A DNA stretch of 64,000 nucleotides from Sipunculus nudus (Eukaryota; Annelida; Sipuncula; Golfingiida; Sipunculidae). The stretch covers positions 63,866,019-63,930,018 of the forward strand of contig CM049306.1 in assembly GCA_026874595.1 (NCBI GenBank), written 5' to 3'. This document shows, one piece after another, positions 12,863 to 38,669 of this stretch; position 1 is the first letter of the stretch; the number at the start of each line of letters is the position of its first letter. The notes below the pieces were generated by a model. That model was not told the origin of the DNA and did no database searches. It saw nothing but the letters and a program-made list of their open reading frames with translations. The position numbers and the translations under genes are program-made.

Positions 12863-13019
12863 ACAATGTAAAGGTCTAATTGGTAAAATGTTTTAGAGGA
12901 ATTATATGAGACAAGCACCCATGCAATTCAGGTTTCACACCTAGGCACAAGGTTTCCTATCAGTTTTTGCAAGTGTCATCAGACCTGCCTTATAACCTGT
13001 GTTAAGGCCTTTAACTTAC

Positions 13020-13160
13020 CATCAAATCATAAACCCTGATGAAATAAGAGCGGAGGGCATTGTCCTTGATGAAGGTCACAACCCCACAGCATCGCTTGTT
13101 CCAACGGTTGCAGCTTGGCCCTTCAGCTAAAAATAGCTGCACCACACCTGTAGCCAAAGT
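13020..13160 (-). CDS. WASL: WASP/N-WASP-family protein, coding exon 2 (WH1/EVH1 domain)
   Basis: The minus strand from 13160 to 13020 is 47 codons with no stop. It is flanked by an AG acceptor at 13161-13162 ('cttttgcag') and a GTAAGT donor at 13014-13019. The peptide contains GVVQLFLAEG, then WNKRCCGVV, then KDNALRSYFIRVYDL. This is the characteristic first half of the WH1 domain of WASP and N-WASP: a central strand, a basic-cysteine turn, then 'G.V.F.KD....SYFIR..D'. WH1 binds WIP-type proline motifs and regulates Arp2/3-driven actin assembly. Exon 1 at 38568-38669 joins in phase 0 to give '...TRCV-TLATGVVQ'. Later exons (rest of WH1, GBD, proline-rich and VCA regions) are not in the window and should lie left of position 1. 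WASP versus N-WASP cannot be separated; a retained exon of a dead copy is possible but unlikely, given intact splice sites. Confidence 0.88.
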
Positions 13161-13414
13161 CTGCAAAAGCCATCATGATATCAGTTAAAAATGACATTGT
13201 AACAGGACATAGGATTATACAGAGGGCAGGGCAGTCATCAAATCAGGACTTTGAAAACAAGGGACCCATGGTAAGCTGATTTTTTTTTTTAAATTGAAGC
13301 AAATGCATAAAAAACATATTTCTATTGTTTTTTTACATATTAGCATTTCAAAATTAAAGAGGTAATGGCAATGCTATATAGCTGAGAGAACCCTGTACTA
13401 GAAACTTTCTTGTA

Positions 13415-14020
13415 AACAAGGGACCCATGGGTCACGGCGCTCAGCTGTTATATATGATTAAAAATTTGATTTTGAAATGAGGCACATGCTGGTTTTGTGT
13501 GGAAATAAATATAAGCTGTATTATGAGTTGTTGGTGTTTAGCTTATGTATGATTTTGATAGTTTCTTTGGAGACAGGGAAGAGATTGATTTCAATTATTT
13601 TATTAACAAATGGAGTGCTACTGTCATACAGATTTTGACTTGGCCATATAACTGATAAGCAGCACATATAAGATAAGAGTTTAACTATATATTAAAATTT
13701 AATAACAAATATTGTGCCAAATATAATTTCTATTAAAAATAATAAGAGAATCATATGATTTTTTAAATAAAATATAACTGAAATGATTTTGAAAATAATA
13801 TTATAGAATATATTCATGAATGCATTCATGAATACATTTTGAAAGTATTTGCACTGGTATTCAAATACTTTCATTTTTACCTGAATTCCCATTCTTATGC
13901 AAGAAATTTTATAATGGAGTACATATTCATATTCATATTCATATACATTTGCAAAGTATTCGCACCATGTCTGGTATTTATTCAGTTTTAGCCAAACAAT
14001 GATGTTGAGAATCCAGAATA
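13415..14020 (+). repeat. 5' fragment of family B
   Basis: It starts 'aacaagggacccatgggtca' with the GACCCATGGGTC palindrome and follows the family B sequence. It breaks off at 'gagaatccagaatat' where family A copy 2 begins with another 'aacaaaggacccatgggt'. The 3' microsatellite and hairpin are missing here. The 114-codon minus ORF at 13692-14036 is low-complexity Ile/Tyr/Phe repeat translation. Confidence 0.65.
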
Positions 14021-14965
14021 TAAACAAAGGACCCATGGGTCACGACGCCCAGCTTAAGTTCAAAATTTTTGCAAATGCAAAATATGAAAAATATTCTATT
14101 GTAATGTTTTTCATTTAGATAAGCATATGAGAGGAAAGGGCCCTCCTACTTGGTTATAGTAAAGTTTTCAATATGTGATTGCAAACTAATACTCTGACAA
14201 GACTGTCATGAAGAAAAACAGTTAAAGTTTTGAGATACTGTGATGCATATGAAAATTTTACAGATGGACAGGCAAGTGGACAGAATGGACTAATACCTTT
14301 TTTTTCACTTTCAAGGGAATAATGCATTTAAGTTTATATATATAAGCCTATTTATTTAGCATATCCACTTTTTTCATTTATAGTTTTTATCTGATTCATT
14401 TTTTTTTTTATTTACAAGTGTTATAAATTTGTAATATAAAAACTGAAAATATAAGTTAAAATATTAGAATTCTAAGTTGCAATCATTATATATCCAGATT
14501 GTAGCTCATATTGGGTCATATTATGCATACACATATATTTTATTATTTTTAAATCAAATGTTTAAACTGAATGTAAAAGACTAGATGTGTCGGAATGACA
14601 CGAATGCCCCCGCCTGGGGCAAATTAGAAACATCTGTTAAATTTTGTAAAATTTTTTAAGTTCAGGAAGTGTTGTATGGTCAAAAGTAGGTCAACAAGGG
14701 CAAAATGCAAACTCGATCTGTAAAGGATCATTTTCAAGCAACACACCAAAAATCAGGCCAGTATCTGCAGGCATTGTGAAAAAAGTACATATATGTGCAT
14801 TTTTCATGAAAATTTCTGTCTTTCATGAAATTTTCTATGTTCAGGATCTGTCATATGGTGAAAAATAGGTTAACTGGGACGAAACGCGAACTCGATCTGT
14901 AAGTGGTCATTATGTGCCCACAGACCAAACATTAGGCCAGTATCTGTAAGCATTGCATTGTGAAA

Positions 14966-17900
14966 CTAGAATATTAGCAAAAGTTGATAATTATTTATAA
15001 ATTTAAATTGGAGAGGTATATACCATGTTTCATAACAATCCACCAAATGCTTCCTGAGAAATAAGCTCCTAAGTTTTTTTCTATACTAAGCTCTGGGACC
15101 TTGAAAAGTAGGTCAAGATCACCCATCTTTGAACTTGACCAAGATTTTGTAAATATAATGCAATAGCACTGAAGAAATGAAGTTCCTGTGTTGAACACCT
15201 TTGGAGATATCCTGCACAAAAGGCCAAAATTGAAAAAATCCGATAAAATTTCATTAAAAATCAGAAATTGCAGGTGGCGCCACCAAAATTGTGCAGCACA
15301 TACAGACCATCAGTCCCAATGACCATAGTAAGTTTTGTGAAAATCCACACAATGGTTCCTGAGATATAAACTTCTGAGTGTTTTTCTTTAATCAGCTCTA
15401 AAATGTAGAACAAGGGACCTATGGGTCACGACGCTCAGCTGTTATATATGATAAAAAAATATTATTTAGAAATGAGGCACATGCTGGTTTTGTGTGGTAA
15501 TAAATATAAGCTGTATTATGAGTTGTTGTTGTTAAGCTTATGTATGATTTTGATAGTACCTTTGGAGACAGGGAAGAGGATTGATTTCATTTATTTTATT
15601 AACAAATGGAGTACTATTGTCACACAGATTTTGACTTGGCCATATAACTTATAAGCAGAACATATAATATAAGAGTTTAACTATTTATTAAAAAAAATAC
15701 AAATATTGTCCCAAATATAATTTTTATTAAAAATAATAAGAGAATCATATGATTTTTTAAAATGAATTATAACTGATATGATTATTAAAATAATATTAAA
15801 GAATATATTCATAATTGCATTCATGAATACATTTTGAAAGTATCTGCACGAGTATTCATATATTTTCATTTTTACCTGAATTCCCATTCTTTATGCAAGA
15901 AATTTTATAATGGAGTACAAAATCATATTCGTATTTAAATACAATTACAAAGTATTTGCACCATGTCAGGTATTTATTCAGTTTTCACCAAACAATGATG
16001 TTGAGAATCCAGAATATACAAAATTCACACATTTAAATAATGATCATAAGTACCTGGTTTTATGGCTTTTATTTATATTAAAAAATAACTGTAAAAAATT
16101 CATTTTGGACTAATTTCACATCAATGTACACACTAGACACAGCAGGAATCTAGATTAATATTATCAACTGCATCTTTGTCTAATTTCCTTCATATGATCC
16201 CTAATGATTAGTAATGAATAATATGATTTACTTCTTTATCATTAAAATTGAACTGAAAAATGCCATAGGTGACTGCATGGTGTTATTTGGAATATGTGAC
16301 ATTCTACCCATCGATACAAGATTCTTATATCATCAGTAACTGCAAGTTAATTTCCTGTTATTAACAAATTCCTTTTCTATTTTTCTTTAATTTGTTATTA
16401 AAAACCAATAAAAATTTATTAATTTATTGTTTTTTGTTATGTTGTTGGTTAAAACTACTAGATGAGTTGGGTTGGACACCTGGATCAACTGTGGCTTGCC
16501 ATAAGCTGCCTGGATTCCATGTATGCCTCGCCTCAAGCGTGCATAATTTGATGAAAGGTCAACAAGGTCAACATACATGTGACTCAAGAGGGGCTGGAGA
16601 GAGCCAAAGTCTGACAGGGTCTCATAAAAAACATTAATAAAAGCTACAATTTTTGGCCAATTTCTTTCAGCTTTCTAAACTTAAAAGCTGAAATGCTTAT
16701 GTGTACATGATATGAAAATTATATCAACAGTGCTCACGGGAAACAAACATGCCATGGTCACAGTTGGGCAAAATTTAAGGTACTAATTTTATATTTATAC
16801 TAAATAAAATTTGAAAAATTCAGAACTAATTTTGGGTATTCAATTGAATCTTGATTAAATAATGTTACATCCCTGACAAAAAAATCTCTAGCTTCAGCAA
16901 TGCTCTTGTTAAGGGAGTAAATATATTTCTTGATTTTTTACAAAGTGCATTATGTTTGGGCCCATAACTTAAAACAATTACACAATACTGACATCATTCT
17001 GGCATGTGCATAGAGAATGAAAAATATGTATATTATTTATGATTAAAGTCAGATCAGTGGTTTTGATATTAGGCAGTCTTGAAGTGTAACAATGGGTTTT
17101 TAATGGAAAAATGAAGTTTTTGATTAATATCTCGAATGTCCTAGTGACCAAATTCTTGGCATGGTAGGGCATTTTGGAGACATCTAACTGTATGCCGAAT
17201 TTAAGGAACTTAGAGCTGAAGCTGGGGAGCTGAGCTCTTGCAAACTGCATAACACCAGCTTGATGTAAACAATATGTTACATGGTGCTTGAAAACTTGAT
17301 TAAATCTACAGTTTTTTATCAACTGGTTTCAAATTTTTGGTGTTAACAGTTGAAATGCTAACAAAAACATGCTGTGAAAATTAAATCCACAGTACTTACA
17401 GGAAAAAAACGTGCCATGGTCAAAGTTGGGCAAAATTTAAGGTACCAATTTTTTATTTTTATTAATATTTTAAAAAATTTAAAAGATTTTCATCTAATTT
17501 TGGGTATACAATTTAATTTTAATTAATTAAAGTTATATTACTGGAAAAAAGGTCCATAGCATTAACATTTTTTGTGTTAAGTGATCAAATATCTTTTCTG
17601 ATTTTTTACAAAATGCATTATGTTTGGGCCCATAACTTTTTTAAATTAAATAATACAGACATAATTTCTGGCATGTACATAGGAACTATATAGAGGAATA
17701 TTTATGGTTAATATGAGGTAAAACAGATGAGTGGTTTTGATATTAGGCAGTCCTGAAGTGTGAAAATAGGTTTTAAATAAAAAATTGAGGTTTTTCCTTA
17801 ATTTCTCAAAGGAACGAAGTTGCAAACACCCAGTTTTCGGCTAGGTAGGAGATCTTGGGGACATCTAACATTATGCCGAATTTTGGATTCCTAGGTCTTA

Positions 17901-18256
17901 CGGTTTCAAAACGTGCCACATCTACGGACGGACGGACGGACGGACGGACGGACAGACGGACGGACGACGGACAATGGACCACGACTATAGCTCAGATGAC
18001 TTATAGTCAGCTGAGCTAAAAATGGGTCAAGGTCCCCATCTTCGAACTTGACCGAGATTTTATCAATATACATCTTCACTGATGAAATAAAAATTCCAAC
18101 GGTGAATCCTTTTAGACATATCCCGCTCACAAGGTTAAAGTTAACAGACGCGGAACAGACGGACGGACGGACAGACAGACACCGGACAGACAGATGGACA
18201 GACGGACAGCTTGGGTGACGACAATAGCCCATCAGCCTATGAGCTGTGGGCTAAAA
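14966..18256 (+). mobile_element. Element C nested in the 181-bp-repeat element
   Basis: It begins near 'ctagaatattagcaaaag'. It ends with an (ACGG)n microsatellite (18158-18209) and a hairpin in which AGCCCA pairs with TGTGGGCT, then 'aaaaa'. It interrupts the 181-bp array, whose sequence resumes at about 18257. Its own body is interrupted by family B copy ii at 15409-18020; 'ctaaaatgtag' on the left continues with 'gggtcaaggtcc' on the right. The minus ORF at 17906-18232 simply reads the GACGG microsatellites as Arg/Pro/Ser-Val repeats. Confidence 0.55.
15409..18020 (+). mobile_element. Family B non-autonomous element, copy ii (uninterrupted)
   Basis: This is the cleanest full-length copy, about 2.6 kb. 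The left end is 'aacaagggacctatgggtca'. It contains the 'tgagttgggttggacacctg' block at about 16468 and two ~660-bp monomers (near 16760 and 17420). The right end is an eight-unit GACG microsatellite, the AGCTCAG/CTGAGCT hairpin and 'ctaaaaa'. It preserves the empty site for the 1965-bp transposon at 15554 and the empty site for the solo LTR at about 17160. Confidence 0.7.
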
Positions 18257-20211
18257 ACTGCTGTACATGTGTATTTGTCATGAAAATTTCTATTTTTCAT
18301 GAATTTTTCTAAGTTTAGGAGCCGTAAAATGGTCAAAAGTATTCAACAGGGACGAAACGCGAACTCGATCTGTAACTGGACATTATCTGCCCACACACCA
18401 AAAATCAGGCCAATATCTGCAGGCATTGCGGAAAAAAGTCCGTACATGTGTATTTGTCATGAAAATTTCTATTTTTCATGAAATTTTCTAAGTTTAGGAG
18501 CCGTAAAACTGTCAAAAGTAGGTCAACCGGGACGAAACGCGAACTCGATCTGTAACTGGTCATTATCTGCCCACAAACCAAAAATCAGGCCAATATCTGC
18601 AGGCATTGCAAAAAAAAGTCCGTACATGTGTATTTGTCATGAAAATTTCTATTTTTCATGAAATTTTCTAAGTTTAGGAGCCGTAAAACGGTCAAAAGTA
18701 GGTCAACCGGGACGAAACGCGAACTCAATCTGTAACTGGTCATTATCTGCCAACACACCAAAAATCAGGCCAATATCTGCAGGCATTGCGAAAAAAAGTC
18801 CGTACAACTGTTTGATTTCGGAATGACGGAATGACGGAATGACGGACATGGGTAAAACTATATGCCCCGGCCACTTTGTGGCGGGGGCATAAAAATAATG
18901 CCACAACATGGCATCTACAAAATTATTCCTTGAATCCCTATTAAAAAGTTTTGCACATTGGAGTTTTCAGTACATGCTTAATTTTATTCACTGAAATAAA
19001 ATAAAAGATTCAGTAAATTTGATAAAATAAAAACATCTTTTCAAATAAAGTATACACACTGTTGGTTGAATGAGGGACAAACAATATCATTATGCTAATT
19101 ACAATCTCAGCTATAATTAATTACTGGAATTAATAGTCAATTTCACACCTGGTGAAGTTTTACTCTTCTGAAGTAAAGCATTACTTATCTGATGAACATC
19201 CACACTTTCATAGCAATACATCACTTTGTGGACACAATTAAATGTGCACTTTAATCATTGTAGCCCTGGTGGTACAATACTAAATCTAAAATGTAGCATG
19301 TCCATGAATAAAATAAAATACAGAAAATTATAACATTCATCTAGTTTATGCACCAGCTGGGGGGGGGGGGGGTGAGTGCAGGGCAGAGGGGAAGCCTGCT
19401 AGTAGTGGCCAAGCTGGGCCAAGGCAAGCTGCCTGGGGTGGGTTCAAAATTCAAGTGAAGGCTGTACTACTAGGTGGGCCACATGTAAACAACACTTGAC
19501 ATGGTGTATGAAAACCTGAATAAAAGCTTCTCTTTTCAAACAATTACTTTCAGATTTTAAAAGATTAAATCCTTATGTATATATGCTGTGAAAATCAAAT
19601 CAACAGTGCTTACAGGGAAAAAACGTGCCACTGCCAAAGTTGGACAAAATTTAAGGTATTGATTTTTTATTTATGCTAATAACTTGGAAAATTTGCAAAA
19701 TTCAGATCTAATTTTGGGCAAACAATTGAATCTTGATTAAATAAAGTTATATTCCTGAAAAAAAAGATTCCAGCTTCAGCAATTCTCATGTTAAGTGAGC
19801 AAATATATTTCCTGATTTTTAAAAAATTGCATTATATTTGGGCCTATAACTTCAAAATAATACCCAAAACTGACCTAATTTTTGGTATGTGCACAGAAAA
19901 TGTATGGAAGATTATGAATACTAAATATGATCAAAAACAGATCAGTGGTTTTGATATTAGGCAGCCTTGAAGTGTAACAATGGCTTTTTTATTGAAAACG
20001 AAGGTTTTTCCTTAATACCTCGAAGGAACTAAGTTCTAATGACCCAATTTTCGGTATGGTAGGAGATTTTGGGGACATCTAATGGTATGCAAAATTTTGG
20101 ATTCGTAGGTCCAACGATTTTAAAACGTGCCCTGTTTACGGCCGGACGGCCGGACGACGGACAAAGGACCACGACTATAGCTCAGATGACTTATATTCAG
20201 CTTAGCTAAAA

Positions 20212-20443
20212 ATCAATATTTTCAATATTAATCATAGATAACCTGAAATCTAAGTGCCTAGGGGCATGATGTAACGGATGCTGATAAACTGATGCCAGGC
20301 TAGATGTATCTGCTTCGCACAGCTAACATATATGGTAAAATGACTCAATTCAATATTTATAATTCAGCCATAATTCATTCTTCGGAACCATAAAAGACAA
20401 TTATTATAAGAATTATTAAGGGGATTATTCTTGTAAAATATTA
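20212..20443 (+). repeat. ~230-bp interspersed repeat G, copy 1
   Basis: This segment ('ataacctgaaatctaagtgc', 'gatgctgataaactg', 'gtaaaatattaaacaa') is repeated with minor changes at 28025-28260. In this copy family D begins immediately after 'ttaaacaa', so family D inserted at the edge of this repeat. No coding potential. Confidence 0.55.
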
Positions 20444-21825
20444 AACAAGGTCTACAGGCCTAACGCGAACCTGTGCATTGGGAAATACACCAGGTATAAT
20501 GCTTCAATGCTGGACCATTACTTCTCATGTATATGAACAATGCAAGTACTAAACATTTTGAATAAGAAACAATTACACAAACATCACTGCTGGAATTCTG
20601 GCATGGGTGCACACAACACATAAATGATTGTAACTGGCACCACCAGTCTTGTATACAACAAAGCTATCACAGATATATACATATGCCCAATTTCAGACTG
20701 ATATATCAAACCCCTCCTGAAAATAAGCAGGGACACACACTGTGCAAAAATTATTGTAGGTGGCACCACCAGTCTTGTATATGACAAAGCTATTTGTTTT
20801 GTATATATATGCCCAATTTCAGGCTGATATATCAAATTCCTCTGTAGATATAAGCAGGCACATACACTGTGCAAAAGTCATTGTAGGTGGCGACACCTGT
20901 CTTGTGAATGAGAAAGCCATCAAAGACACATAGACAGGTCAAAATATCTGGCCAATACATCAAACTTACCTTGAGTCTGATGCATGGGGCTGACCAGGCT
21001 AAGGTGAAAAGGCAGTTGCCCTGAGTGAACTGTGACAAATTTGCTGGCTCAAGCCACTGCACTGAGTGCACTCATGACCTGCAGCTGGCTAGACTGAGTG
21101 AACTTTTGACCTGTAATTGGCTGCACTGAGTGAACTCTTGACCTGTTGCATAATCTGAAACATTTGGCAGCTGCCAAAGCTATAAATAAATTGAGGCTGA
21201 ACTTTGGTGACAAATCTGATGCAGTGGGAAGTCTGCCAACGCTATTAATAGAATGCAGCTACTGCACTGAGTGAACTCCTGACCCAAACCTGGCTGCACT
21301 GAGTGAACTCTTGACCTGTTGCCTAATCTGATACAGTTGGCAGTCTGCCAAAGCTATACATAGATCCAGACTGACCTCTAGCCTGTTGCAAAATCTGAAA
21401 TAGTAGCCACACCATTGCATAAGCTCATGCAGGGGCCCTGCCCTCAGGGGCATGACACCCATGAAGTGATCACATGGTGCCCATGAGGTGATCACATGCC
21501 TTGTGCTTGGCTGCACTGATTGAACTCTTGACCTATATCTGGCTGCACTGAATGAACTCTTGATCTGTTGCCAAATCTGAAACAGTTGGCAGTTTCTCAA
21601 CCTATTAAAAGATACAGACACAATCATGGCCTGTTGGTAAAACTGTTTACACATACTGAAAGACTTTGGCTAAAATGCTTTTTTTTCAAGCTGATATATT
21701 CATAAACCTTTTATCAAAATATCTAGAATAATAAAAGATGCAGTCCTTTCATCATTAAAGGTCCAATAATTCTGCCAAAAATCATTCAAGTAAACTTGAA
21801 CAAAGGCCACCTAAGAATAATTTTT
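20444..21825 (+). mobile_element. Family D non-autonomous element, copy 2 (3' end lost)
   Basis: It starts 'aacaaggtctacaggcctaa', matching copy 1 at 11491, and has the same 'ctgcactgagtgaactc' sub-repeats at about 21055-21310 and 21500-21560. It runs into DIRS reverse-transcriptase sequence at about 21825 and lacks the terminal 'gagctaaaac'. The 131-codon minus ORF at 21259-21654 reads the sub-repeats and is not a gene. Confidence 0.55.
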
Positions 21826-21830
21826 GTGCA

Positions 21831-22640
21831 ATGTTACACATGACACCGAACTGTTTTATGGCATCACTGGATCTGAAGGATGCTTATTATTCAGTTCCTG
21901 TAGCACAATGTTACCAAAAGTATCTCAAATTTAGATGGGAAGGTAAACTCTACAATTACACCTGCCTTCCAAATGGTCTCGTATCAGCACCCAGAATTTT
22001 TACAAAATTGATGAAACCTGTTTTGGCACACTTGAGATTAAAAGGACACATATCCAGTATTTATCTGGACGATTTGTACTTGCAGGCTGAGTCGGAATTT
22101 GTCTGTCAGAAAAATATCAGTGACACAGTTCAATTACTTACATCACTGGGGTTTTTTGTGCATGAACAAAAGTCTGTACTTAAACCGGTACATGCTATTG
22201 ACCATTTAGGGTTTACCTTAAATTCTCACACAATGGAGATCATGTTGACAGCTGAGAAAAAATCTAACCTGGTAAAATTGCTTACAGACAGGATCAGTGA
22301 GCCTCAGTGCACAATCAGGCAAGCAGCTAAACTGATTGGCTGCTTAGTTTCGGCTTTACCTGGTGTCCATTATGGTGAGCTTCACTACAGATCCTTAGAA
22401 ATTGAAAAAATCAGAGCACTGCAGTTAAGTAAAGGCAAATTTGATTCAAACATGGAATTTAGCCACCAATCATTAAAGGACATGAAATGCTGGCTAGCAA
22501 ACATTGACATGCCAAAACCCATAAATGTTCACAGTTGTGACTGCTCCCTTCAAACAGATGCATCAACCCAAGGATGGGGTGCAGTTTTCCAAAACATGAG
22601 TACTGGGGGTAGATGGGCTGAACATGAAACATCAGATCAT
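21831..22640 (+). pseudogene. DIRS reverse transcriptase and start of RNase H (5' part)
   Basis: The frame runs about 270 codons from sequence equivalent to 'TPNCFMASLDLKDAYY' through 'LPNGLVSAPRIFTK'. The catalytic box is YLDD (IYLDDLYL), with a Gly-rich 'DHLGFTLNS' segment after it. The RNase H domain opens with LQTDASTQGWGAVFQ, giving its first Asp. Reading then enters the inserted transposon at 22642, so residues from 'TVKVVAEV' onward are not DIRS protein. Deleting the insertion and one TA rejoins the frame as 'HETSDH' plus 'INVLELKA', where Glu is the second RNase H catalytic residue. The upstream RT fingers and gag are missing. Confidence 0.85.
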
Positions 22641-22641
22641 A

Positions 22642-24606
22642 CCGTAAAAGTCGTTGCAGAAGTCGCGACTTGTACTAGGAAATGGAATTCTAAAAACAAG
22701 AATTTTCTAGCAAAGTCAGGGTGCGACTTATAATACGTACTTATCTCGTCTCAGTCAGCTTTCCCGGTATGTGGGACAACGGCAGTTGAGCGATAATCGG
22801 CGATACTTCTAGCCATTGCTTTGTGAAACGTCTTTCCCCAATATTTTACACCTTTAACAATCTCTTATAAAAACCTTCCTTATATTTTGTGAACTGGTAT
22901 AATTCTCATTTTATTAACATGAAATACAAATTATAAATTTGCCCAGTTTAAGGCCTACCCGTTCTGACAAGTCGCAATTCAAGTGACACTTCCTAATCTG
23001 CGTTACTGTTATATCATGAATCAATTTGACGCATATGCCAGTCTGCCGCTCTTTGATGTACATTTTCTCTCCGTTTAATCTTTATGGGTATGCGTGTTAT
23101 TATGAAAAACTCGAGGTTCCATATCCGTTTATACATGTCAAGTTGCGTCAGATTCAAGCTTGATCCACTACAGACACGTCGTGAATTCTATTGCCTGTCC
23201 GGTTGATCGCTATGGTACCAGCTGACCTTTGAAGCCGTGTAGCGGAAGTTCAAGCCCCAGGTCACCCGTGCAATGACCTTTACATCCCCAGGTCAACTAA
23301 GCCTTCGTGACTAATATCCACAGTTATAAACTCCAATATTAAGAACCATCAGGTCACCGTCACCGTCTCGTGGTTTTCAAGCGTATTGGATAACAATATT
23401 ATAACGTTTCACGTGAGCTGCAAATATACGATTTGTTTCATGTTTTACCCGTTTTTCATTCATGACGATCGTATGTTCGGTCAACAATATGGCAGCACGC
23501 ATGCATTACGGTCAATCGTGCGTTGACGTATTCATGATTTTTTTTACGAAGACACATTAATAAATAAAATGAAATAACAAACACCATACAGATATATATT
23601 TGATTTACTGAAATTGCCACATACGTACCTAAATTCCACAGGAACCGGCATCGTTTGGTGTCATGACGGATCTGGTTCAACACGGCTGAGTTTGCCATAC
23701 ATCTAAGCCATTTGAATATAATAACTGATAGCGACGGTAATTGGGCTTTCCAGATATTATCAAAGAATAAAATCATTAGTCTCAGTAAATATAATACCCG
23801 TAAATTCAATCATGTTTATTTTACATTTAACTGACCGGTCAATAAAGCGTTCATTATCCCCTTGCTGACTGACATTTCAGTAATACTGTGCATGTGCCGC
23901 GCCTTGATGGTAAGTTGTAACAATTTATTCAAGGGTTACTTAATTCAGTTTTAGAGCCCTTTTCTGAAATTAGGTGAATAAATTCAATCTAAATTATTCT
24001 TTCCATCCTTCAGTTGTCTTCAATTCAAAATATGTCCAATGCGACGGATTGGGACTCGTCACGCGTGCGCAAACTAATCATAGTCTAATGAATCCACCAT
24101 ACTTATGACGATCTTTAACGATTTAAAGAGTTGCCCGATTGTGATAGTATTATTTAACTGGATAATTGCATTCTAATGTTACTTAACCTAGTAATAAACG
24201 GCAATAATGACATCGTTTCACAGCACAAAATGTTATCCGACGCAGCTGACTCTGGCACTGTACAAATCTCACTGACAATTGAACCCCGACTTTATATGTA
24301 ATGATTCTGTTTTTATTCCTTGAAAATAAGCATTGTATTAAAGTTGTCCAATTTATTTTATGTTTAAATGGTTTATCTAGTTTTTAAACCACAGTACTAC
24401 GGGGACGTTGGTTGTGGTCTTGCACCACAAGGAATGACACTTAAATTCCTTGAGTATCAGGTGGTTGGGACGCCTATGAAGTGCGGGTGCGACCTATATT
24501 ATGGACTTTTCCTGAAACCAAACTTGAACGGCTTTTCACGTGGGGGATCCTAAAAGTCGGGGTGCGACTTGTAATAAGGATGCGACTTCTGCAACGACTT
24601 TTACGG
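22642..24606 (+). mobile_element. 1965-bp non-autonomous TA-targeting DNA transposon, copy 2
   Basis: Same length and ends as 5417-7381, in the opposite orientation. TA flanks lie at 22640-22641 and 24607-24608. It splits the RNase H frame of the DIRS element exactly between His and Ile codons. The few differences from copy 1 that I noticed include 'cataccggg' versus 'catatgggg' and 'cagaacggg' versus 'cagtacggg' (given on one strand). Near-identity of two copies inserted in different hosts marks recent movement, later than the DIRS and family B insertions. The 117-codon frame recurs at 23456-23809. No transposase is recognised, so mobilisation in trans is inferred. Confidence 0.8.
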
Positions 24607-24607
24607 T

Positions 24608-26272: not shown

Positions 26273-26410
26273 TATGTGTCACATAATAGGTACAAACTGG
26301 CACATTCCTGTCAACTATATACATGATGTATCACACACAAGTTTTGCACTTGGCAATTATTAATAAAGTTTGTAACTTTTTTCTGTGTGTTTTTTGTTCA
26401 TGACAGCTTT

Positions 26411-27161: not shown

Positions 27162-28024
27162 ATCTTTTCATCTAAAGTTTTTCAGCTTTTTCCCTGTAAA
27201 ATCTAAGTAAATAAAGACAGCAAAAAAATAAGCTGAATCCCACAATATTGGTATGTGACAGATTCTTGCATAAAATCTTGGGATGGTACCTCCTGCTATT
27301 CCTGAGATATTATGGGTTAATGTACAGATGACCAATGACCCTCGTACAAAAAACAGGTCAATGCAGGTGGCGCCGTCAATACCTGAATTTCATATATGAC
27401 TCATGTGACCAACGCTGGCATAAAATTTGGTGATGATACCTCCGGCTGTTTCTGAGACTGTCATTCTAGTATGCTTTTTATGACAGATGACTAAGTTCAA
27501 CTTCCTGTAACTCGGCCAAAATTCACCAAACTTGAACCATTCAAACAAACCTGAGAGAGATGGTATAAAAGATTATTTCTGTGAAATATTGAACAATTTG
27601 GCTTGACTGTTTAGGAGGAGAAGATTTTTAAAGGTTTTTAGCTTTTTCTCTAGTAAAGCTAAGAAAATGCAGAGTTTTTCAGATGGCTAATTTTTACATT
27701 AAATTTCATGATGCTAGCGCCAGTCGTTTTTGAAATAGTATTGGTAACGTACAGATGACGGACGCCGCCACACCATCGCATTAGCTCATAAGTTCACTAA
27801 AAATTACTACAGATGCATATTGAATGCAAAATTATAATACAGATATACACATCTCACTGATGGCAACATCTTGAATTAAGTTGAGTATGGATACCAATTA
27901 TTTATAATCCATGTACAGCCGTCTTTATACACCCACAGAGAGCTGTATACCTGTGATTGTAAACATTCCCTGGCATGTGGAATATCTAAAATCATAAATC
28001 TACATTTTTTTTAAAGGTTTAAAA
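27162..28024 (+). repeat. Family F repeat, copy 2, and unassigned AT-rich sequence
   Basis: 27162-27800 matches 4330-4930, including 'gcaggtggcgccgtcaatac' and an end of 'gacggacgccgcc' followed by 'ttcactaaaaat'. 27801-28024 shows no gene and no repeat I can identify. Confidence 0.45.
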
Positions 28025-28693
28025 AACATTCTTGTCAATATTAACCATAGATAACCTGAAATCTAAATGTCTACAGGCATGATGTAACAGATGCTGATAA
28101 ACTGGTGCCAGGCTAGATGAATCTGCTTCACACAGCTAACATATATGGTAAAATGACTCAATTCAATATTTATAATTCAGCCAAAATTCATTCTTTGGAA
28201 CCATAATAGACAATTATTATAAGAATTATTCAGGGGATTATTCTTGTAAAATATTAAACAAATTGGCCTCAGTGGAGTCAGTCAAAAAACGTTTTAGAAG
28301 GTTTATATCTCATATGGGAAAATACAGCAAACTGGCTAAGTTCAGCTTCCCATTACTCAGCCAAAAATCACTGAACCAAAACCATTTGAACAAACTTGAA
28401 TTATCAACATCTAAGGATAATTAATGTGTTAGATTTAAGAATTTGGCCCAGTGGTTTTCGAGAAGAAGATCTTTGTAGCCACTGAGCTAAATAGGCTGTA
28501 ACGGAATATATGACTAAATTCAGCTTCCCATAACTCAGCCAAAAGTCACTGAACAGATACCATTTGAACAAACTTCAGAAAGCTCTACCCTAGGAACATT
28601 TCTCTGCGATATTTAACAATTTGGCCATATGATTTCAGAGAAAAAGTTTTTTGAAGCCGTAAGTATGATACAGGCACTGATGACCCCTGTACA
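28025..28693 (+). repeat. Repeat G copy 2 followed by a family F fragment
   Basis: 28025-28260 repeats 20212-20443. After 'ttaaacaa' the sequence continues as a family F-like segment with two short sub-repeats ('aagttcagcttcccattact' and 'aaattcagcttcccataact', about 175 bp apart). It is interrupted at 28694 by family B copy iii ('ctgtacaaacaagggaccca'). Confidence 0.45.
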
Positions 28694-29712
28694 AACAAGG
28701 GACCCATGGGTCACGGCGCTCAGCTGTTATATATGATAAAAAATATGATTTGGGAAAGAGGCACATGCTTGTTTTGTGTGGTAATAAATATAAGCTTTAT
28801 TATGAGTTGTTGGTGTTTAGCTTATGTATGATTTTGATAGTATCTTTGGAGACAAGGAAGAGATTGATTTCATTTATTTTATTAACAAATGGAGTGCTAT
28901 TGTCACACAGATTTTGACTTGGCCATATAACTTATAAGCAGCACATATAATAAAAGAGTTTAACTATTTATTAAAATTTAATAACAAATATTGTGCCAAT
29001 ATAATTTTTATTAGAAACAAATAATAAGAAAATCGTATGATTTTTAAAATAAAATATAACTGAAATGATTACTGAAATAATATTATAGAATATATTCATG
29101 AATGCATTCATGAATACATTTTACAAGTATCTGCACTGCTATTCAAATACTTTCATTTTTACCTGAATTCCCATTCTTATGCAATAAAATTTTTTAATGC
29201 AGTACATGTTCATATTCGTATTCAAATACATTTGCAAAGCATTCGTACCATGTCTAGTATTTATTCAGTTTTAGCCAAACAATGATGTTGAGAATCCAGA
29301 ATATACAAAATTCAAAAATTTAGATAATGATCATAAGTACCTGGTTTTATGGCTTTTATTTATGTTAAAAAAATAAATGTAATATATTCACTTTGGACTA
29401 CTTTCACATCAATGTACACATTAGACACAGTAGGAATCTAGATTAATATTATCAACTGCATTTTTGTCTATCATTAATTTCCTTCATATGATCCCTAATG
29501 ATTAGTAATGAATAATATGATTTATTTTTTTATCATTAAAATTTCACTGAAAAATACCATAGGTGACTGCATGGTGTTATTTGGAATAACATTGACAATG
29601 ACATTCTATCCATCCATACAAGATTCTTACATCATCAGTAAGTTAATTTTCTGTTACTCATCAACTAACAAATTCCTTTTCTATAAATTTTTCTTTAATT
29701 TGTTATAAAAAA

Positions 29713-31263
29713 CTAGATGTGTCGGAACGACACGAATGCCCCCGCCTTGGGCAAATTAGAAACATTTGTAAAATTTTGAAAATTTTTTTAAGTTCAGAAG
29801 GTGTCGTATGGTCAAAAGTAGGTCAACAAGGGCAAAATGCAAACTCGATCTGTAACGGGTCATTATCAAGCAACACACCAAAAATCATGCCAGTATATGC
29901 AGGCATTGTGAAAAAAAGACCATACATGTGCATTTTCCATAAAAATTTCTGTCTTTCATGAAATTTTCTATGTTTAGGAGCCGTAAAACAATCAAAAGTA
30001 GGTCAACCGGGATGAAACGCGAACTCGATCTGTAACTGTCATTATCTGCCCACACATAAAAAATCAGGGTGGTATCTGCAGGCATTGAGGAAAAAAAGTA
30101 AGTACATATGCATTTGTTATGAAAATTTATATTTTTCATGAAACTTTCTATGTTCAGGAGCAGTCAAATGGTCAAAAGTAGGTCAACTGAGAGAAAACAA
30201 GAACTCGATCTGTAACTGGTCATTATCTGCCTACACACCAAAAATCAGGCCCGTATCTGCAGGCACTGCGAAAAAAAGTCCATACATATGCACCTTTTTA
30301 TGAAATTTTCTTTGTTAGAGCACCGTCAAACGGTCAAAAATTGGTCAACTGGGATAAAACGTGAACTTGATCTGTAACTGGTCATTATCTGCCCACACAA
30401 CAAAAATCAGGCCAATATATGCAGGTATTGTGAAGAAAAGTCTGTACAAGTGTATTTGTCATGAAAATTTATGTTTTTCATGAAATTTTCTATGTTCAGG
30501 AGCTGTAAAACAGTCAAAAGTAAGTCAACCAGGACGAAACACTAACTCGATCTGTAACAGGTCTATATCTGGCCACACATAAAAAATCAGGCCAATATCT
30601 GCAGGCATTGCGAAAAAAAGTCCGTACATGTGTATTTGTCATGATATTTCATATTTTTCATGAAATTTTCTAAGTTTAGGAGCCGTAAAACAGTCAAAAG
30701 TAGGTCAACCGGGACGAAACACGAACTCGATCTATAACTGGTCTATATCTGTCCACACACCAAAAATCAGGCCAATATCTGCAGGCACTGCGAAAAAAAG
30801 TCCGTACATGTGTATTTGTCATGAAATTTCATATTTTTCATGAAATTTTCTATGTTCAGGAGCCGTAAAACGGTCAAAAATAGATCAACCAGGACAAAAC
30901 GCGGAATCGATCTGTAACTGGTCTATATCTGCTCACACACCAAAAATCAGGCCAATATCTGCAGGCATTGTGAAAAAAAGTCCGTACATGTGTATCTGTC
31001 ATGAATATTTCTATTTTTCATGAAATTTTCTAAGTTAAGGAGCCGTAAAACGGTCAAAAGTAGGTAAACCAGGACGAAACGCGAACTCGATCTGCAACTG
31101 GTCTATATCTGCCCACACACCAAAAATTAGGCCAATATCTGCAGGCATTGCGAAAAAAAGTCTGTACAACTGTTTGATTTCGGAATGACGGAAGGACGGA
31201 AGGACGGAATGACGGACATGGGTAAAACTATATGCCCCGGCCACTTTGTGGCGGGGGCATAAA
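29713..31263 (+). mobile_element. Element with ~181-bp tandem core, copy 2 (eight monomers)
   Basis: It starts 'ctagatgtgtcggaacgaca' and has eight successive monomers marked by 'gtcaaaa(g/a)' at about 29812, 29991, 30170, 30334, 30513, 30693, 30874 and 31055. It then has 'cggaatgacggaaggacgg' repeats and the same GCCCCGGCCAC/GTGGCGGGGGC stem-loop ending 'gcataaaa'. Later monomers are more alike than the first ones, which suggests array growth from the 3' side. It inserted in an A-run of family B copy iii with no evident target duplication. The 122-codon minus ORF at 31035-31403 crosses the element boundary and is spurious. Confidence 0.75.
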
Positions 31264-32048
31264 AAATACAAAATTATTAATTTATTATTTATTGTTATGT
31301 TGTTTTTCAAAACAACTACTAGATGAGTTGGGTTGGACACCTGGATCAACTGTGGCTGGGCATTAGCTGCCTGGCTGCCCCAGTGTATGCTTCGCTCAAG
31401 CATGCATAATCTGATGAAAGGTCAACAAGGTCAACATACAGTTGACTGAAGAGGGGCTGGAGTAAGCCTGGGTCTGACATGGTCTCATAAAAACATTAAT
31501 AAAAGCTACAATATTTGGCCAATTTCTTTCAGCTTTCTAAACTACAAAGATGAAATCCTTATGTGTGCATAATATGAAAATTATATCAACAGTGCTCTCA
31601 GGAAACAAACGTGCCATGGTCAAAGTTGGGCAAAATTTAAGGTACTAATTTTATATTTATACTAATAACTTATAAAATTTGAAAAATTCAGAACTAATTT
31701 TTGGTATTCAATTGAATCTTGATTAAATAATGTTACATCCCTGACAAAAAATCTCTAGCTTCAGCAATCCTCTTGTTAAGGGAGTAAATATATTTTTTGA
31801 TTTTTTAAAAAGTGCTTTATGTTTGGACCCATAACTTAAAACAATTACGCAATACTGACATCATTTCTGGCGTGTGCATAGCGAATGTATAGAAAAATAT
31901 GTATATTATATATGATCAAAGTCAGATCAGTGGTTTTGATATTAGGTAGTCTTACAGTGGAACAATGGGTTTTTAATGGAAAAATGAAGTTTTTCATTAA
32001 TATTTCGAAGGAATTTAGTTCTAGTGATCAAATTCTTGGCATGGTAGG

Positions 32049-33198
32049 TGTCACCCCTAACTTAACGTGAAAACTTTACAACGGATATATCCTATAAAAC
32101 CATAAGATGGGTTTACGATCGCCACTTGATTTCACTCATCAAGAAAATAGATCCCGGCCATTACAGGTGACATTTCCAGGTTCTTTTAAGGACGTGTATT
32201 AAAATACCAGACAATCATACACCCAGATCAATAGAAACTATGAGACATCAGGTTAAATTCACAAATATAATTCAAGACAATACTTACAGAGACACGAATG
32301 TGAGTGTGTGCGTTGATGTGTCAATACGACAGTTCTTCACATTAAAATTACAGGATATTTACTGAGTCCATGGTTTGTATAAAAAAACCATAAAGTCCAG
32401 TTCCTTCAGAGATCTCTGGTTACTGTTAGTGTAGAATCTAGCGTATGGTTAGTACCATATAGATTTAGTCTTTCTGAGTTTAGCGATCTTCAACTGATCT
32501 TGCTTGTCTGCGACCCGGGTAGGTTTACGTTCACATGAATGCAATAGCGCTCTTTGTTTACGTAGAGCTTAGAGTCCTTGACCTTGCTCGTGTAGCAATG
32601 GTTTCACGGCTTACGGCGGTTATGTATCTAGGTCAAGCTGAAATAGGCCGGCAGGTGACGAGCGCTCTTTCACTTTATCGCCAATACGAAGCTCTGTCGG
32701 CAGCACGGCTGAGTTCTCATGAGCTGGGTCCTTGCCTCATGTAGAAGCTTGCTTCTATGCCGTTCCTGGCGTTTCAATGTTCCTATTCCCGTGCGTGCGT
32801 GCTGCCACCTCAAGCTTCAAGACCCAACTGAACCAACATTCAGCGTCTCTTCTTGAAGTCTGACGTCACAATCGCCTGTTCACTGTGTACGGCAATCCGG
32901 TTCTCTGATTGGCTTATTTCTCAAGTGTCCCATATAAGGATATATGTGACCTAGTTTGACTGTTAGCGTCACCATGGCGACCCACATACCAAAAATGTAA
33001 TAATACACACGAAGCGTGACACGGATAAATCAGCTGATAGCCGATGGGATTTCATACAAGAATACACAATATATATATATACAATCAAGACCTGTCAACG
33101 CTTTAGGATGACGTTTCACGTCAATATCAATAGAGAACAGACTTCGTTAAACTATGATACAAAACACCGTACATATTGTCACCTATTGTCTGGTGACA
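32049..33198. mobile_element. Solo LTR of an LTR retrotransposon (1150 bp)
   Basis: It begins TGTCACCCCT and ends TGGTGACA, so it has the TG...CA ends with short inverted repeats (TGTCACC/GGTGACA). It is flanked by the 5-bp direct repeat GTAGG at 32044-32048 and 33199-33203. The empty site 'catggtagggg' is preserved in other family B copies. It is more GC-rich than its surroundings and contains TATA-like 'catataaggatatatg' at about 32931. No coding domain is present; the 69-codon ORF at 32535-32744 is not convincing. It arose most likely by LTR-LTR recombination. The superfamily (gypsy or BEL) is not decidable here. Confidence 0.8.
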
Positions 33199-34077
33199 GT
33201 AGGGGATTTTGGAGACATCTTACTGTATGCTAAATTTAAGGAACTTAGAGCTGAAGCTGGGGAGCTGAGCTCTAGTAAACTGCATAACACTAGTTTGATG
33301 TAAACTTGATGTGACATGGTGCTTGAAAACTTGAATAAAATCTACAGTTTTTGATCAACTGGTTTCAAATTTTTGGTGTTAACAGACAAAATGCTAACAA
33401 AAACATGCTGTGAAAATTAAATCCACAGTACTTACAGGAAAAAAACCTGCCATGGTCAAACTTGGGCAAAATTTAAGGTACCAATTTTATATTTTTGCCA
33501 ATATTTAAAAAAACTTAACAGATTTTGATCTAATTTTTGGTATACAATTAAATTTTGATCAATTAAAGTTGTATTACTGCAAAAAGGGCCCACCTTTAAC
33601 ACTTTTGGTCTTAAGTGACCAAATATCTTTCCTGATTTTTTTACAAAGTCCATTATGTTTGGGCCCAAATCTTTTTTAAATTAAATAATACTGACTTAAT
33701 TTCTGGCATGTACATAGGAACTATATAGAGAAATATTTATGGTAAATATGAAGAAAACCAGATGAGTGGTTTTGATATTAGGCAGTCCTGAAGTGTGAAA
33801 ATAGATTTCTAATAAAAATTTGAGGTTTTTCCTTAATATCTCAAAGGAACAAAGTCCTATTGACCCAATTTTCGGCATGGTAGGAGATTTTAGGGACATC
33901 TAACTGTATGGCGAATTTCAGATTTGTAGGTCCAATGGTGTCAAACGTGCCAGTCTTACGGACTGACATCCGGACAGACGGACGGACAGACGATGGACAA
34001 TGGACCACGACTATAGCTCAGATGACTTATAGTCAGCTGAGCTAAAAAATGTAACATATTGGCTTGACTGTTTCATC

Positions 34078-35394
34078 AACAAGGGACCCATGGGTCACTG
34101 TGCTCAGCTGAAGTTGACCTTGAAGGTAAAAATCTAAAATAATATCAAATGGAGATAAAGTGTAAGAGGAAGAGGTAATATAGGCCATGGTTGGTTTAAA
34201 TGATTGGTTTGTATTGATGAGCAAGAAATTGTTGCAAATAATATTTTATGACCTGACCATGTGTTTCCTTATGTTGAAACTGAAGCATGTGAGCAGTTTG
34301 TGAACAAATGATCTGTTTTATTACCATGATCATTAGTTGGCTTTTTAAATTAACTGTTGACATTTCAGTAGTTTGCACATTTGTTCAGTTGAATCTATTT
34401 TTTTGTATAATATATATTATTAAATATATATGTATTTTTCTATTTTATGAAATGTATGCAGTTGAAATATAACTAATTAACAACATACATACAGGGCAAA
34501 CAAAGCCTGATCTCCAATTCTGCTGATGCAGGAAAATAATGAACAAATGTTTGCATTAGATCTTCATTCTTTTATCACATCAATTTTTTTTATTGATGGG
34601 TTTAATTATATTTGTTTAAATCATTTTAAAAGAAAATGGAATTCTTCTGACCCATAGATCAAGATGCTCAGCCGACTGACATGCTGACAATATGTCCTTG
34701 CACAGGCAACGAATTAAGATAATGTAGGTGGCATCATTGTTCATGCATCTTAGCTTATGTTCATCAAAACCTATAAGCACAACAAATTTGATGACAATCC
34801 AACCAGCCTTTCCCGAGGAATCTGGCAATTTGTGTGTATTCTGCATAATTTCTGGGATGCTCAAACATACCCAAAGATCTGAGAATATAAGTCACAGTGA
34901 CTGAATTTTCACGTTTCTGGGAAGAACTTTTGAGGGACTCTCAGGATGTCAAGTAAGAAGTTTCTGGGCTAAATGGTTATGATTTGTGCCCTACTTTGGT
35001 ATCAAATTTTCAATTATACTGAGGGGTGCTTATAAGCCCCATAGCTTATGGACCTCCCTGGATTTAAAGTTAGAAGATTCCAGGTCCAATTGTTATGATG
35101 TGCCCTGCTATGGTATCAAATTTATAATTATGCTGGGGGGTGTTTATAAGCCCCATAGCTCAGAGAATATGGGTAACAACTTTTGTATAAAATTTTCCAT
35201 TATTCTGGAGGGTACTTCGGAGCCCCATAGTTCAAAGAATATGGGTAACAGAGACCTAATTCCAGGTTTCCAAGGAGACCTTTCATGGATCTCCTGGGAA
35301 GTTAGAAGATTCTAGGTCCGGTCATTACGATTTGGGCCTTGTTAATAGATGACTGCATCTTTTAGGGTCTCAAAAATAGAGACAAAAAATCATA
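34078..35394 (+). repeat. Truncated hairpin-type element with 335-bp-family sequence
   Basis: It starts 'aacaagggacccatgggtca' right after family B copy iii. The first 120 bp ('aggaagaggtaatatagg') match 4225-4310. From about 34985 it carries two to three diverged copies of the monomer arrayed at 55-57 kb ('gagccccatag', 'atatgggtaaca'). It is cut at 35395 by another family B start. Nothing coding is seen in 34200-34980, which is AT-rich. Confidence 0.45.
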
Positions 35395-36080
35395 AACAAG
35401 GTACCCATGGGTCACAGCGCTCAGCTGTCATATATGATAAAGAAATATGATTTTGAAATGAGGCACATGCTGGTTTTGTGTGGCAATAAATATATGCTGT
35501 ATTATGAGTTGTTGGTGTTTAGCTTATGTATGATTTTGATAGTATCTTTGGAAACTTTGGAAGAGGATTGATTTTATTTATTTTATTAACAAATGGAGTG
35601 CTATTGTCAGGCTATTGTCACACAGATTTTGACTTGGCCATATAGCGTATAAGCAGCACATATAATAAAAGAGTTTAACTATTTATTAAAATTTAACAAC
35701 AAATATTGTGCCAAATTTAATTTTTATGAAAAAAATAATAAGAAAATCATGTTTTTTTTAATAAAATATAACTGAAATGATTATTAAAATAATATTATAG
35801 AATATATTCATGAATGCATTCATGAATACATTTTGAAAGTATCTGCACTGGTATTCAAACACTTTCCATCTTACCTGAATTCCCATTCTAATGCAAGAAA
35901 TTTTATAATGCAGTACATGTTCATATTTGTATTCAAATACATTTGCAAAGGATTGGCACCATGTCTAGTATTTATTCAGTTTTAGCCAAACAATGATGTT
36001 GAGAATCCAGAATATACAAAATTCACAAATTTAAATAATGATCATAAGTACCTGGTTTTATGGCTTTTATCTATATTAAA
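35395..36080 (+). repeat. 5' fragment of family B
   Basis: It begins 'aacaaggtacccatgggtca' and follows family B up to 'atggcttttatctatatt', then changes to an AAATAC-rich repeat. It has the same breakpoint region as the fragment ending at 14020, suggesting a preferred truncation or insertion site. Confidence 0.6.
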
Positions 36081-36490
36081 ATACAAATACAGAACATCAA
36101 ATACAAATAGGCAAATGCAGGTTTTACAGAATATTTATTAATTTCCAGCACCATAAATATTCATGTCTACTCATAGCGATACTACTTGTGTACTTCTATA
36201 TTCTACAAAGTTTAAAAAATAATTCCTGTTGCAACACACGAACATAAATTCCTCAATCCTACTGTCTGAAAGACATCCTTAAAAGTTAGGTAGTAGTTAA
36301 ATTTTCAAAATTATGGCAGATTTGAATATTTATTTATACATATGTATTTGTTCAGTATTTGATCAAATACTGAGATCAAATACAAATACTATCATTATGC
36401 ACATCACAAATACAAAAACAAATACAAATACACACAATCAATGAGTGTATTTAAATACAAATACAAATACGTATTTGACCCAACCCTGAA
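36081..36490. repeat. AAATAC-rich repeat ending in CCCAACCCTG
   Basis: Multiple AAATAC units occur at 36081-36112 and 36375-36475. The right border 'gtatttgacccaaccctg' is the inverted form of CAGGGTTGGG, an end I associate with hAT-type non-autonomous elements. I do not see the opposite end, so this is a partial or merely hAT-like element. Confidence 0.35.
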
Positions 36491-38567
36491 AAACATCCAT
36501 GGAGTGAGAAAAATGGCTTAATTTTGAGTTCATTTTCAACTTTTAGCATTGGATTTTTTTGTCAGTTTTAAGATATGGAGTAGCACTGTGGGAGAGGAGC
36601 CCCCGTCACTCTGATCAAAAAGTCCACCAATAGCCAAATAAACGCAATATTCTCAGGGAAATTATGCAGGGGGTTTCCGCCAGGAGGTTGCATTTCTATA
36701 TTACACTGAAATCAGACCCCGTCGCATGAAGCACTCCATTAAATTAAATAAAATTCATATTTATTTCTAAATGCCTGAATGATAGCAAATGTTCTGGAAG
36801 GTCCTTCAGTTGGTGCCAGAGAAACAGCTCCCATAGATGTGTCCGGCAGTATTAGTGCACATGCTCATAAGAAGTGCCAGAACTTTAGCCTGTATGATAA
36901 GTGTCAGCAGCAACAGTCTTAAGTGCGGCTATATCAAGAATCCTGGATACCACCGCATAAAAAGGTTCAGAGTCCACTGGGGTACAAGTCTAGAATTCAG
37001 GCTGTTGTTCTGGACACGTTAAGACACCACGGATACATGTGAAACGTTGTAATAATATATCCAGTTTGTAAGTTAATGGTATCCTATATCCTTCCCATGT
37101 ACCTCTTACCCTGTAATAATGTACAATTTATCCTTCCTTCACACAAATTAACATGCTCGTACCCGACATGATTCCTCCCTCCTGCTTGTTTACACCACTC
37201 GGCTTATGTGCACATGTCCTGCATACGTCATTCACATCCGTTGTCTTGCGCCCTCCAGGCATTTGTACGCACACACATCATGGATAAATTTGGTGTATTT
37301 CAAAGGTTAGGGTTCACAAATAAAACAGTGACTCCACCTTGTCCGCAAGAAGCACGAGACAGAGTACGGTTTAGTGGCAGGCAGTTAACAAACGGCTGAG
37401 GGTTAAATTTTTTAAGCTTTTGCAACGTCCAGACGATGCATACGCTTGACATTTTAACAACTACAACCAATTCTGAAAAGTAGATTTAAATATTCCCACT
37501 CGACCCCTCACACCCAACTCGTCTTGCATGGTGCAGTGGTAGTGCATAGGGCTTGTTAATCCATGATTGCTAGTTCCAGACCCGGTGGAGAGCTTCACAA
37601 TTGCATGTTATGTGTACTAATAATGGCATTTCTCATTACAGGTTCGCCACTAGACGGAGACACAGATACATACGGCAGACATACCAACAAGAGACTATAG
37701 TCCGTTCCAGCACCCCTGTCCACCTGTTTTTTGGCGATTATCTCTACATAAGACAAACTTGCAAAATAATATTTGCACCAATGGCATGAAGAGGCAAAAG
37801 CATAATTTTTGGTACCTTACCTACTCAAAATATAAATATTATTCACTTTACGCCCTGGTTGACATGTCTCATATATATCCGTCGTTCATGGCGTCCCTAA
37901 TAAGTGGCCATTGTTTATCCTCCTTGGATATGGATATAAAGTAATGTGACGTAACAGTGAAGCGCGTGCATGCGGAGAATACAAGTCTTGCTATAAACAG
38001 GGGTCAGGAGCTCTTGATTATTGGTCCCATGAACATGGGCGCCTCTTTAGTACGTCACGCCTATTATGACGTCATCACTAATCCCTGATATGCCCATTTC
38101 ACAGATTAGTGGCACGATGTCGCTACAGAAAAGACTTGTTACTCATAAAATGCTTTTAAATTGTTTACAGGAAAATGACATAAGGTACGCTATTATTTCC
38201 ATAATGGTTAATTACGCTTTTTCCTCTTTCTGCCCTAAGATCAAAATGTTTGGACGTTCTTTGATTATCAAAAAATAATCACGATAAAACAGGTGGACAG
38301 GCGTACTGGAATGGACTATAGAAACCAGAAGTTTTATTTATTGACTCAAACTCAATGGCTCAAACAGCAGCCTGAATTCTAGATGTGCTCCTAAACTGGG
38401 AACTTTAAACCCTTGTTTAAAAAAAAATCGTGTAAAATCAAATATTGCGATTATGACATGGAAACTTAAGTAATCTAAGGAAGATATAGTACTTTATTCA
38501 AATGACCAAGAAATTCAGCTAAATATTAGGATTAGGGGAATCAGGAATTTTTTTTAAAGTATCTCAC
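36491..38567 (-). other. Exon-1-proximal part of intron 1, no gene recognised
   Basis: This is less repetitive and slightly more GC-rich than the rest of the intron. It contains cAMP-response-type sites TGACGTCA at 38067-38074, TGACGTAA at 37947-37954 and ACGTCA at 38052-38057. A tRNA-like segment lies at about 37510-37585. Short frames, for example a 39-codon frame beginning MDKFGVFQRL near 37278, match no known family. It could contain enhancers of the WASP-family gene. Confidence 0.4.
37512..37586 (+). other. Possible tRNA-like / SINE head with internal pol III boxes
   Basis: TGGTGCAGTGG at about 37520 fits the A-box pattern. About 45 bases on, 'tagttccagaccc' is close to a B-box (GTTCRANNC) with one mismatch. 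'ggcttgttaatcc' between them could be an anticodon arm with GTT. The acceptor stem does not pair convincingly, so it is not a functional tRNA. It may be a decayed tRNA-derived SINE or a chance match. Confidence 0.3.
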
Positions 38568-38669
38568 CACACATCTGGTCCCAATGAGAGAAAATAACTT
38601 CTTGTTTTCTTGATTGGATAACAATATGGACGATTCGTTTTCAGGTCGAGATTTCCTTTGGCTGGCCAT
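38568..38669 (-). CDS. WASL: WASP/N-WASP-family protein, coding exon 1 (start codon and N-terminus)
   Basis: The minus strand from 38669 reads ATGGCC in good context ('gaccATGG'). It runs 34 codons to a GTGAG donor at 38563-38567. The peptide MASQRKSRPENESSILLSNQ continues ENKKLFSLIGTRCV. The 'S..L...EN..LF.L.G..C' pattern is the conserved entry to the WH1 domain of WASP/N-WASP. It ends in phase 0 and joins exon 2 (13160) to give 'GTRCV-TLATGVVQLFLAEG', matching the family without gap. The protein links signalling (Cdc42, PIP2, WIP) to Arp2/3 actin nucleation in the cytoplasm; only the WH1 start is visible here. An upstream non-coding exon cannot be excluded. Confidence 0.87.

Follow-up and report, generated by a model that had tools for sequence, protein, structure and literature searches.

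Proteins of the WASP family bind WIP through their WH1 domain and GTP-loaded Cdc42 through their CRIB motif, and an autoinhibitory domain holds the VCA end, whose release activates Arp2/3. In the comparative analysis of Kollmar et al. (2012; PMC3298513), the duplication that produced WASP and N-WASP is dated to the onset of the vertebrates, most of the invertebrates analysed there have one WASP with species-specific duplications in a few, and in a molluscan WASP gene, ApcWASP of Aplysia californica, exons 11A and 11B, close to the second WH2 and the C domain, are described as mutually exclusive. A literature search on WASP in bivalves found none, which does not show that the matter is unpublished. 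Here, I describe a WASP gene of the sipunculan Sipunculus nudus, called WASP-A, the beginning of which is scattered through repeat DNA in a stretch of 64,000 nucleotides (hereafter the window; positions 63866019-63930018 of contig CM049306.1, or C1, in assembly GCA_026874595.1, the searched genome amounting to 1.43 Gb). The window very probably contains the 5' end of a WASP/N-WASP orthologue on the minus strand of C1, from a putative promoter through exon 1, intron 1 and exon 2 into intron 2; a second gene on the same contig, WASP-B, is an old duplicate of it.

The initial annotation of this DNA had proposed two minus-strand exons of 34 and 47 codons, bounded by AG and GT sites and joined in phase 0 across 25,407 bp, and all of these coordinates were confirmed, as was their assignment to the N-terminus and first half of the WH1 domain of a WASP/N-WASP protein. 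When translated and joined, the two exons give 81 residues that match human WAS in the PDB with E=1.4e-20, together with N-WASP and two WIP/N-WASP fusion chains, leaving one other match up to E=10 (at E=0.93) among 177,635 distinct PDB sequences; the same peptide matches Pfam WH1 with E=3.3e-11. Exon 2 is also strong by itself (PDB WAS, E=2.1e-12; Pfam WH1, 2.2e-9). The peptide of exon 1, the ATG of which lies in the minus-strand context gattgaccATGG, is weak by itself, with N-WASP (E=0.014) and WAS (0.41) as its sole two PDB matches up to E=10 and no match to Pfam WH1, the sole Pfam match being to an unrelated family at E=0.28. As a control, the N-terminal WH1 segments of human WAS and N-WASP were compared by tblastn with the window and with 200 dinucleotide shuffles. 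The top two places in the window for each query were the two exons (58.9/28.1 bits for WAS and 47.0/32.3 bits for N-WASP), and the best shuffle scores were 24.6 and 25.0 bits, so that even the weaker exon was unreached in 200 shuffles. No further WH1, GBD or VCA exons were found within the window, where the best E of about 0.45 is at chance level.

The initial annotation had placed these remaining exons to the left of the window, and that is where most of them were located, in order and on the same strand, with the first seven exons in phase and the acidic exon not found. They were identified by a WH1 family search, protein searches of the genome and tblastn on the 200 kb of DNA to the left of the window (Table 1); the genome search with PF00568 gave eight matches at E<=0.001 of 13 candidates scored, and exon 2 is among them, as is the following WH1 exon on its strand. 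The resulting order, namely four WH1 exons followed by basic, CRIB, autoinhibitory, proline-rich plus WH2, and central exons, is that of known WASPs, and the gene spans 301,016 bp from its ATG at C1:63904687 to at least 63603672 in the central exon. Its first seven exons have GT/AG sites and matching phases and yield 265 codons without a stop, and the best PDB match of the 265-residue peptide is N-WASP (6uhc; E=8.2e-81, residues 6-263), with the WASP GBD structures 2k42, 1ej5 and 1cee matching as well. The four joined WH1 exons match Pfam WH1 at 5.7e-34, their best PDB matches being WAS and N-WASP, with Spred and Ena/VASP-like proteins no better than E=0.004, and the joined CRIB and autoinhibitory exons match Pfam PBD at 2.5e-18. 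Further downstream, two WH2 motifs are readable by eye (Pfam WH2, 8.4e-9 as one stretch), the central exon is by eye an open frame between AG and GT, and a central-region search of the genome returned two matches up to E=10, of which one falls in WASP-A and the other in WASP-B. These findings bear on whether chance, or a stray WASP fragment in repeat DNA, might explain the two window exons, a reading that would draw on the weakness of exon 1 by itself (E=0.014) and on the rest of WH1 lying outside the window; its probability is vanishingly small, because the other exons follow in order and in phase and none of the 200 shuffles reaches the observed scores, and the seven-exon join with its N-WASP match refutes it.

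Table 1. Features of WASP-A in 5' to 3' order of the gene; positions are those of the window or of contig C1
Feature	Position	Strand	Details
Putative promoter/5' flank	window 38670..39300	-	CpG-rich stretch directly 5' of the ATG
Exon 1	window 38568..38669	-	begins with ATG, 34 codons in all (MASQRKSRPENESSILLSNQENKKLFSLIGTRCV); donor GTG/gtgaga
Intron 1	window 13161..38567	-	25,407 bp; phase 0 junction
Exon 2	window 13020..13160	-	47 codons, 141 nt; acceptor tttgcag/A, donor ATG/gtaagt; first half of WH1
Intron 2 (part)	window 1..13019	-	total length 40,445 bp; 27.4 kb from the left window edge to exon 3
Exon 3	C1:63838592-63838506	-	WH1, 87 nt
Exon 4	C1:63822618-63822519	-	WH1, 100 nt
Basic exon	C1:63750029-63749888	-	in phase
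CRIB exon	C1:63704860-63704818	-	in phase
Autoinhibitory (WAID/GBD) exon	C1:63646142-63645962	-	N-WASP, 53.1 bits
Proline-rich/WH2 exon	from C1:63634131	-	acceptor in phase with autoinhibitory exon
Central (C) exon	C1:63603782-63603672	-	51% identical to WASP-B, E=0.0733

The second gene, WASP-B, is 32 Mb from WASP-A (C1:31868117-31854672) and occupies 13,446 bp. Its exons 1-4 have canonical splice sites, exons 2-4 (141, 87 and 100 nt) are identical in length and phase to those of WASP-A, and basic, CRIB, autoinhibitory, proline-rich, WH2, central and acidic exons and a stop codon are readable beyond them, the borders past exon 4 having been set by eye. The two genes differ in size, WASP-B measuring 13.4 kb and WASP-A at least 301 kb: the first three introns of WASP-B are 3,794, 1,917 and 877 bp long, whereas the gaps of WASP-A from exon 1 to the proline-rich exon amount to 25,407, 40,445, 15,887, 72,489, 45,027, 58,675 and 11,830 bp. 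Over exons 2-4, 66 of 109 residues are identical between WASP-A and WASP-B, 62 between WASP-A and human WAS, and 52 between WASP-B and human WAS. The same exons (327 nt) differ between the two genes with a pS of 0.80, which is saturated, and a pN of 0.26, and it follows that the duplication is old and that the protein sequence was kept in both copies. As far as can be judged from such sequence comparisons, the features common to WASP-A and WASP-B favour a duplication after the protostome-deuterostome split. The WH1 of WASP-A is the nearer of the two to human WAS (162 bits, versus 139.7 bits for WASP-B).

Several observations weigh against an intact WASP-A and have to be set beside this evidence. 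In the proline-rich exon, the expected frame is proline-rich up to a C-rich run, beyond which the proline-rich/WH2 reading continues in another frame, with the result that, in the assembly, the N-terminal part does not share a frame with the WH2 and central regions. A mini-intron inside this exon was considered as the cause and, on visual inspection of the letters, rejected, since the first frame stays proline-rich all the way to the C-rich run. The slip is either a sequencing error, common in C-rich runs, or a mutation, two causes that are indistinguishable from the assembly, and it leaves some doubt on WASP-A. In addition, the acidic exon was not found in a genome search with the WASP-B tail, of which the one match was WASP-B itself, the locus having been read down to C1:63603601; such an exon is about 20 residues long, of low complexity and hard to detect by sequence. 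The WH2 and central exons were found via weak matches (E=0.0124 and E=0.0733), their placements being borne out by position, strand and letters and, for WH2, by Pfam. The PBD family, searched against the genome, matched four places, none in WASP-A or WASP-B, because in both genes introns divide the CRIB/autoinhibitory region, and a genome search with a VCA query gave four matches up to E=10 and did not list WASP-B itself, from which it is clear that such searches miss true exons. Also, the autoinhibitory exons score about equally against N-WASP (54.2 bits for WASP-B and 53.1 bits for WASP-A), and with a paralogue carrying all domains, loss of WASP-A could be tolerated.

Two alternatives follow from these points. 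It is quite improbable, though the compact and complete WASP-B, the slip in the assembly and the missing acidic exon would all suit it, that WASP-A is a recently inactivated duplicate with a real frame slip and that WASP-B does the work: the WH1 of WASP-A is the one nearer to human WAS, seven exons keep canonical splice sites without a stop, the frame of the central exon is open by eye, and the slip sits in the kind of run that is generally error-prone in sequencing. The initial annotation had itself foreseen that a WASP gene with different exons elsewhere might reduce the window exons to unexpressed duplicates. Such a gene does exist at C1:31.85-31.87 Mb. A long-dead duplicate is nevertheless not what the window copy resembles, because its WH1 is nearer to human WAS and its seven exons are intact. 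There is also a very slim prospect that WASP-A is expressed as a shortened WASP that lacks a functional VCA end, comparable to the S-WASP that PMC3298513 describes in certain fishes and to the short WASPs of certain basidiomycetes, and that would serve in regulation and not in nucleation; the slip and the missing acidic exon would yield such a product, whereas the WH2 motifs and central region are still recognisable past the slip, and a long-standing loss of VCA would not preserve these. WASP-A is best read as a WASP/N-WASP orthologue, a real and otherwise ordinary host gene of a known family with bloated introns, the compact paralogue being what was unexpected.

The introns themselves are filled with repeats. 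The share of sequence recurring elsewhere in the window is 60.4% for intron 1, 79% for window positions 1-13019 and 21.5% for 38670-64000, and exons 1 and 2 do not recur. The simplest account of the size of the gene is that the introns would have grown via transposon insertion and tandem duplication. Intron 1 contains a plus-strand DIRS-like element with matches to reverse transcriptase (3.6e-18) and tyrosine recombinase (9.2e-12) and a Dam-methylase match under the Pfam cut-off. Nested in it is one copy (22640-24611, inverted) of a 1,972-bp terminal-inverted-repeat element, of which the other copy lies at 5412-7383 on the plus strand; the two differ at 5 of 1,972 positions, have TA at both ends by eye, and have a longest open frame of 117 aa with no Pfam match over the cut-off, and four uninterrupted relatives of the 5412-7383 insertion site are present in the window. 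Intron 1 also carries 180-bp tandem arrays at 17924-18806, adjoining ACGG microsatellites, and at 29810-31168; this array and ACGG arrangement resembles, in layout only, the Helentron-derived HINE/Pearl elements of bivalves as described in PMC7492417. Outside the window, a tandem array of a 9.76-kb unit (C1:63712427-63749121; about 3.8 copies, 36.7 kb, 98.2-99.4% identity between copies) takes up the greater part of the 45-kb intron that separates the basic and CRIB exons, ends 0.8 kb from the basic exon and is accompanied by a 2.3-kb partial copy at 63705805-63708081; it may stem from a recent duplication or from faulty assembly.

The initial annotation had recast the whole window as the intron and promoter landscape of an actin-regulator gene, and this applies to positions 1-38669, which lie inside the gene, and not to 38670-64000, an upstream flank with a CpG-rich stretch beside the ATG and transposons beyond it. 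The CpG observed/expected ratio is 1.2 at 38701-39300, upstream of exon 1, compared with 0.53 for the window. A ratio of 1.2 is reached by 18 of 635 intervals of 600 bp, and the other 17 lie elsewhere, in both copies of a young transposon and at 61.1-62.3 kb, so the peak by exon 1 is suggestive only. The top ratio of the window, 1.46, is at 61201-61800 (29% G+C), with no explanation among the features examined. Farther upstream of WASP-A there is a minus-strand Helentron-like element (44972-50656) with PIF1-like helicase and endonuclease (Exo_endo_phos) domains over the cut-off in the four open frames scanned and a Helitron-like N-terminal match of 28.5 bits, just under the cut-off of 28.9, as well as a 126-bp tandem repeat at 50617-50997 and a plus-strand fragment (62773-63612) with an RNase H domain of the LTR-retrotransposon type (RT_RNaseH, 7.5e-22). 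The window has 34 open frames of at least 110 aa, 11 of which were scanned with Pfam; it has no Rfam match at the gathering score and, by ARAGORN, no tRNA.

Considering how such a gene might work, transcription would start in the CpG-rich stretch adjoining exon 1, ordinary splicing would remove the long introns, and the protein would be an autoinhibited Arp2/3 activator, with its WH1 held by WIP and its release brought about by Cdc42-type GTPases at the CRIB; the domain set, as read from the DNA, would fit this mechanism in outline. What stands out is the compact WASP-B paralogue, which is new, and the extreme intron growth in WASP-A. A tentative and rather unlikely idea is that the old duplication kept two functional WASP copies separated mainly by gene size, so that intron length would set how labour is divided between them. 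If this were true, the roughly 300-kb transcript that WASP-A needs could make its response slow and dependent on chromatin and on splicing across introns full of transposons, the compact WASP-B could be made quickly, and the division would be parallel to, and independent of, the vertebrate WASP/N-WASP split. Furthermore, short exons of a conserved gene that lie tens of kb apart amid repeats are easily missed by annotation, and automatic WASP gene models are reported to hold many mispredicted exons (Kollmar et al., PMC3298513). With two WASPs of extreme size difference, this locus is a good test case for the annotation of giant introns and for the effect of intron growth on an actin regulator.

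Among the known families, membership in WAVE/SCAR, WASH and WHAMM was considered and rejected, since WASP-A has WH1 and PBD and not their family-specific N-terminal domain; membership in Ena/VASP, Homer and Spred was likewise rejected, since its WH1 is closest to WAS/N-WASP and a CRIB and WAID region is present. Other WH1/EVH1 exons in the genome, which by eye resemble those of Ena/VASP, Homer and Spred, are found at C3:59918676-59939449, C8:33187592-33192407 and C3:72471528-72474740. WASP-A differs from human WAS in its exon 4, which is 100 nt long where the human exon has 103 nt, and in its length of at least 301 kb, the human gene being a few kb long. The resemblance is otherwise close, as 133 residues of the WH1 of WASP-A, spanning three junctions, align gap-free with human WAS (E=6.8e-47). 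The splice variants c.132+1, c.133-1, c.274-2 and c.360+1 of human WAS, as named in a table of PMC9304939, set borders at c.132/133, c.273/274 and c.360/361, and thus a human exon 2 of 141 nt and exon 3 of 87 nt with borders in phase 0, and exons 2 and 3 of WASP-A are equal to these in length and phase. Similarly, WASP-A resembles mammalian WASL (N-WASP), which is the best PDB match of its N-terminal part and with which it shares two WH2 motifs, readable by eye; given the vertebrate-onset date that PMC3298513 assigns to the split between WASP and N-WASP, WASP-A should be co-orthologous to both.

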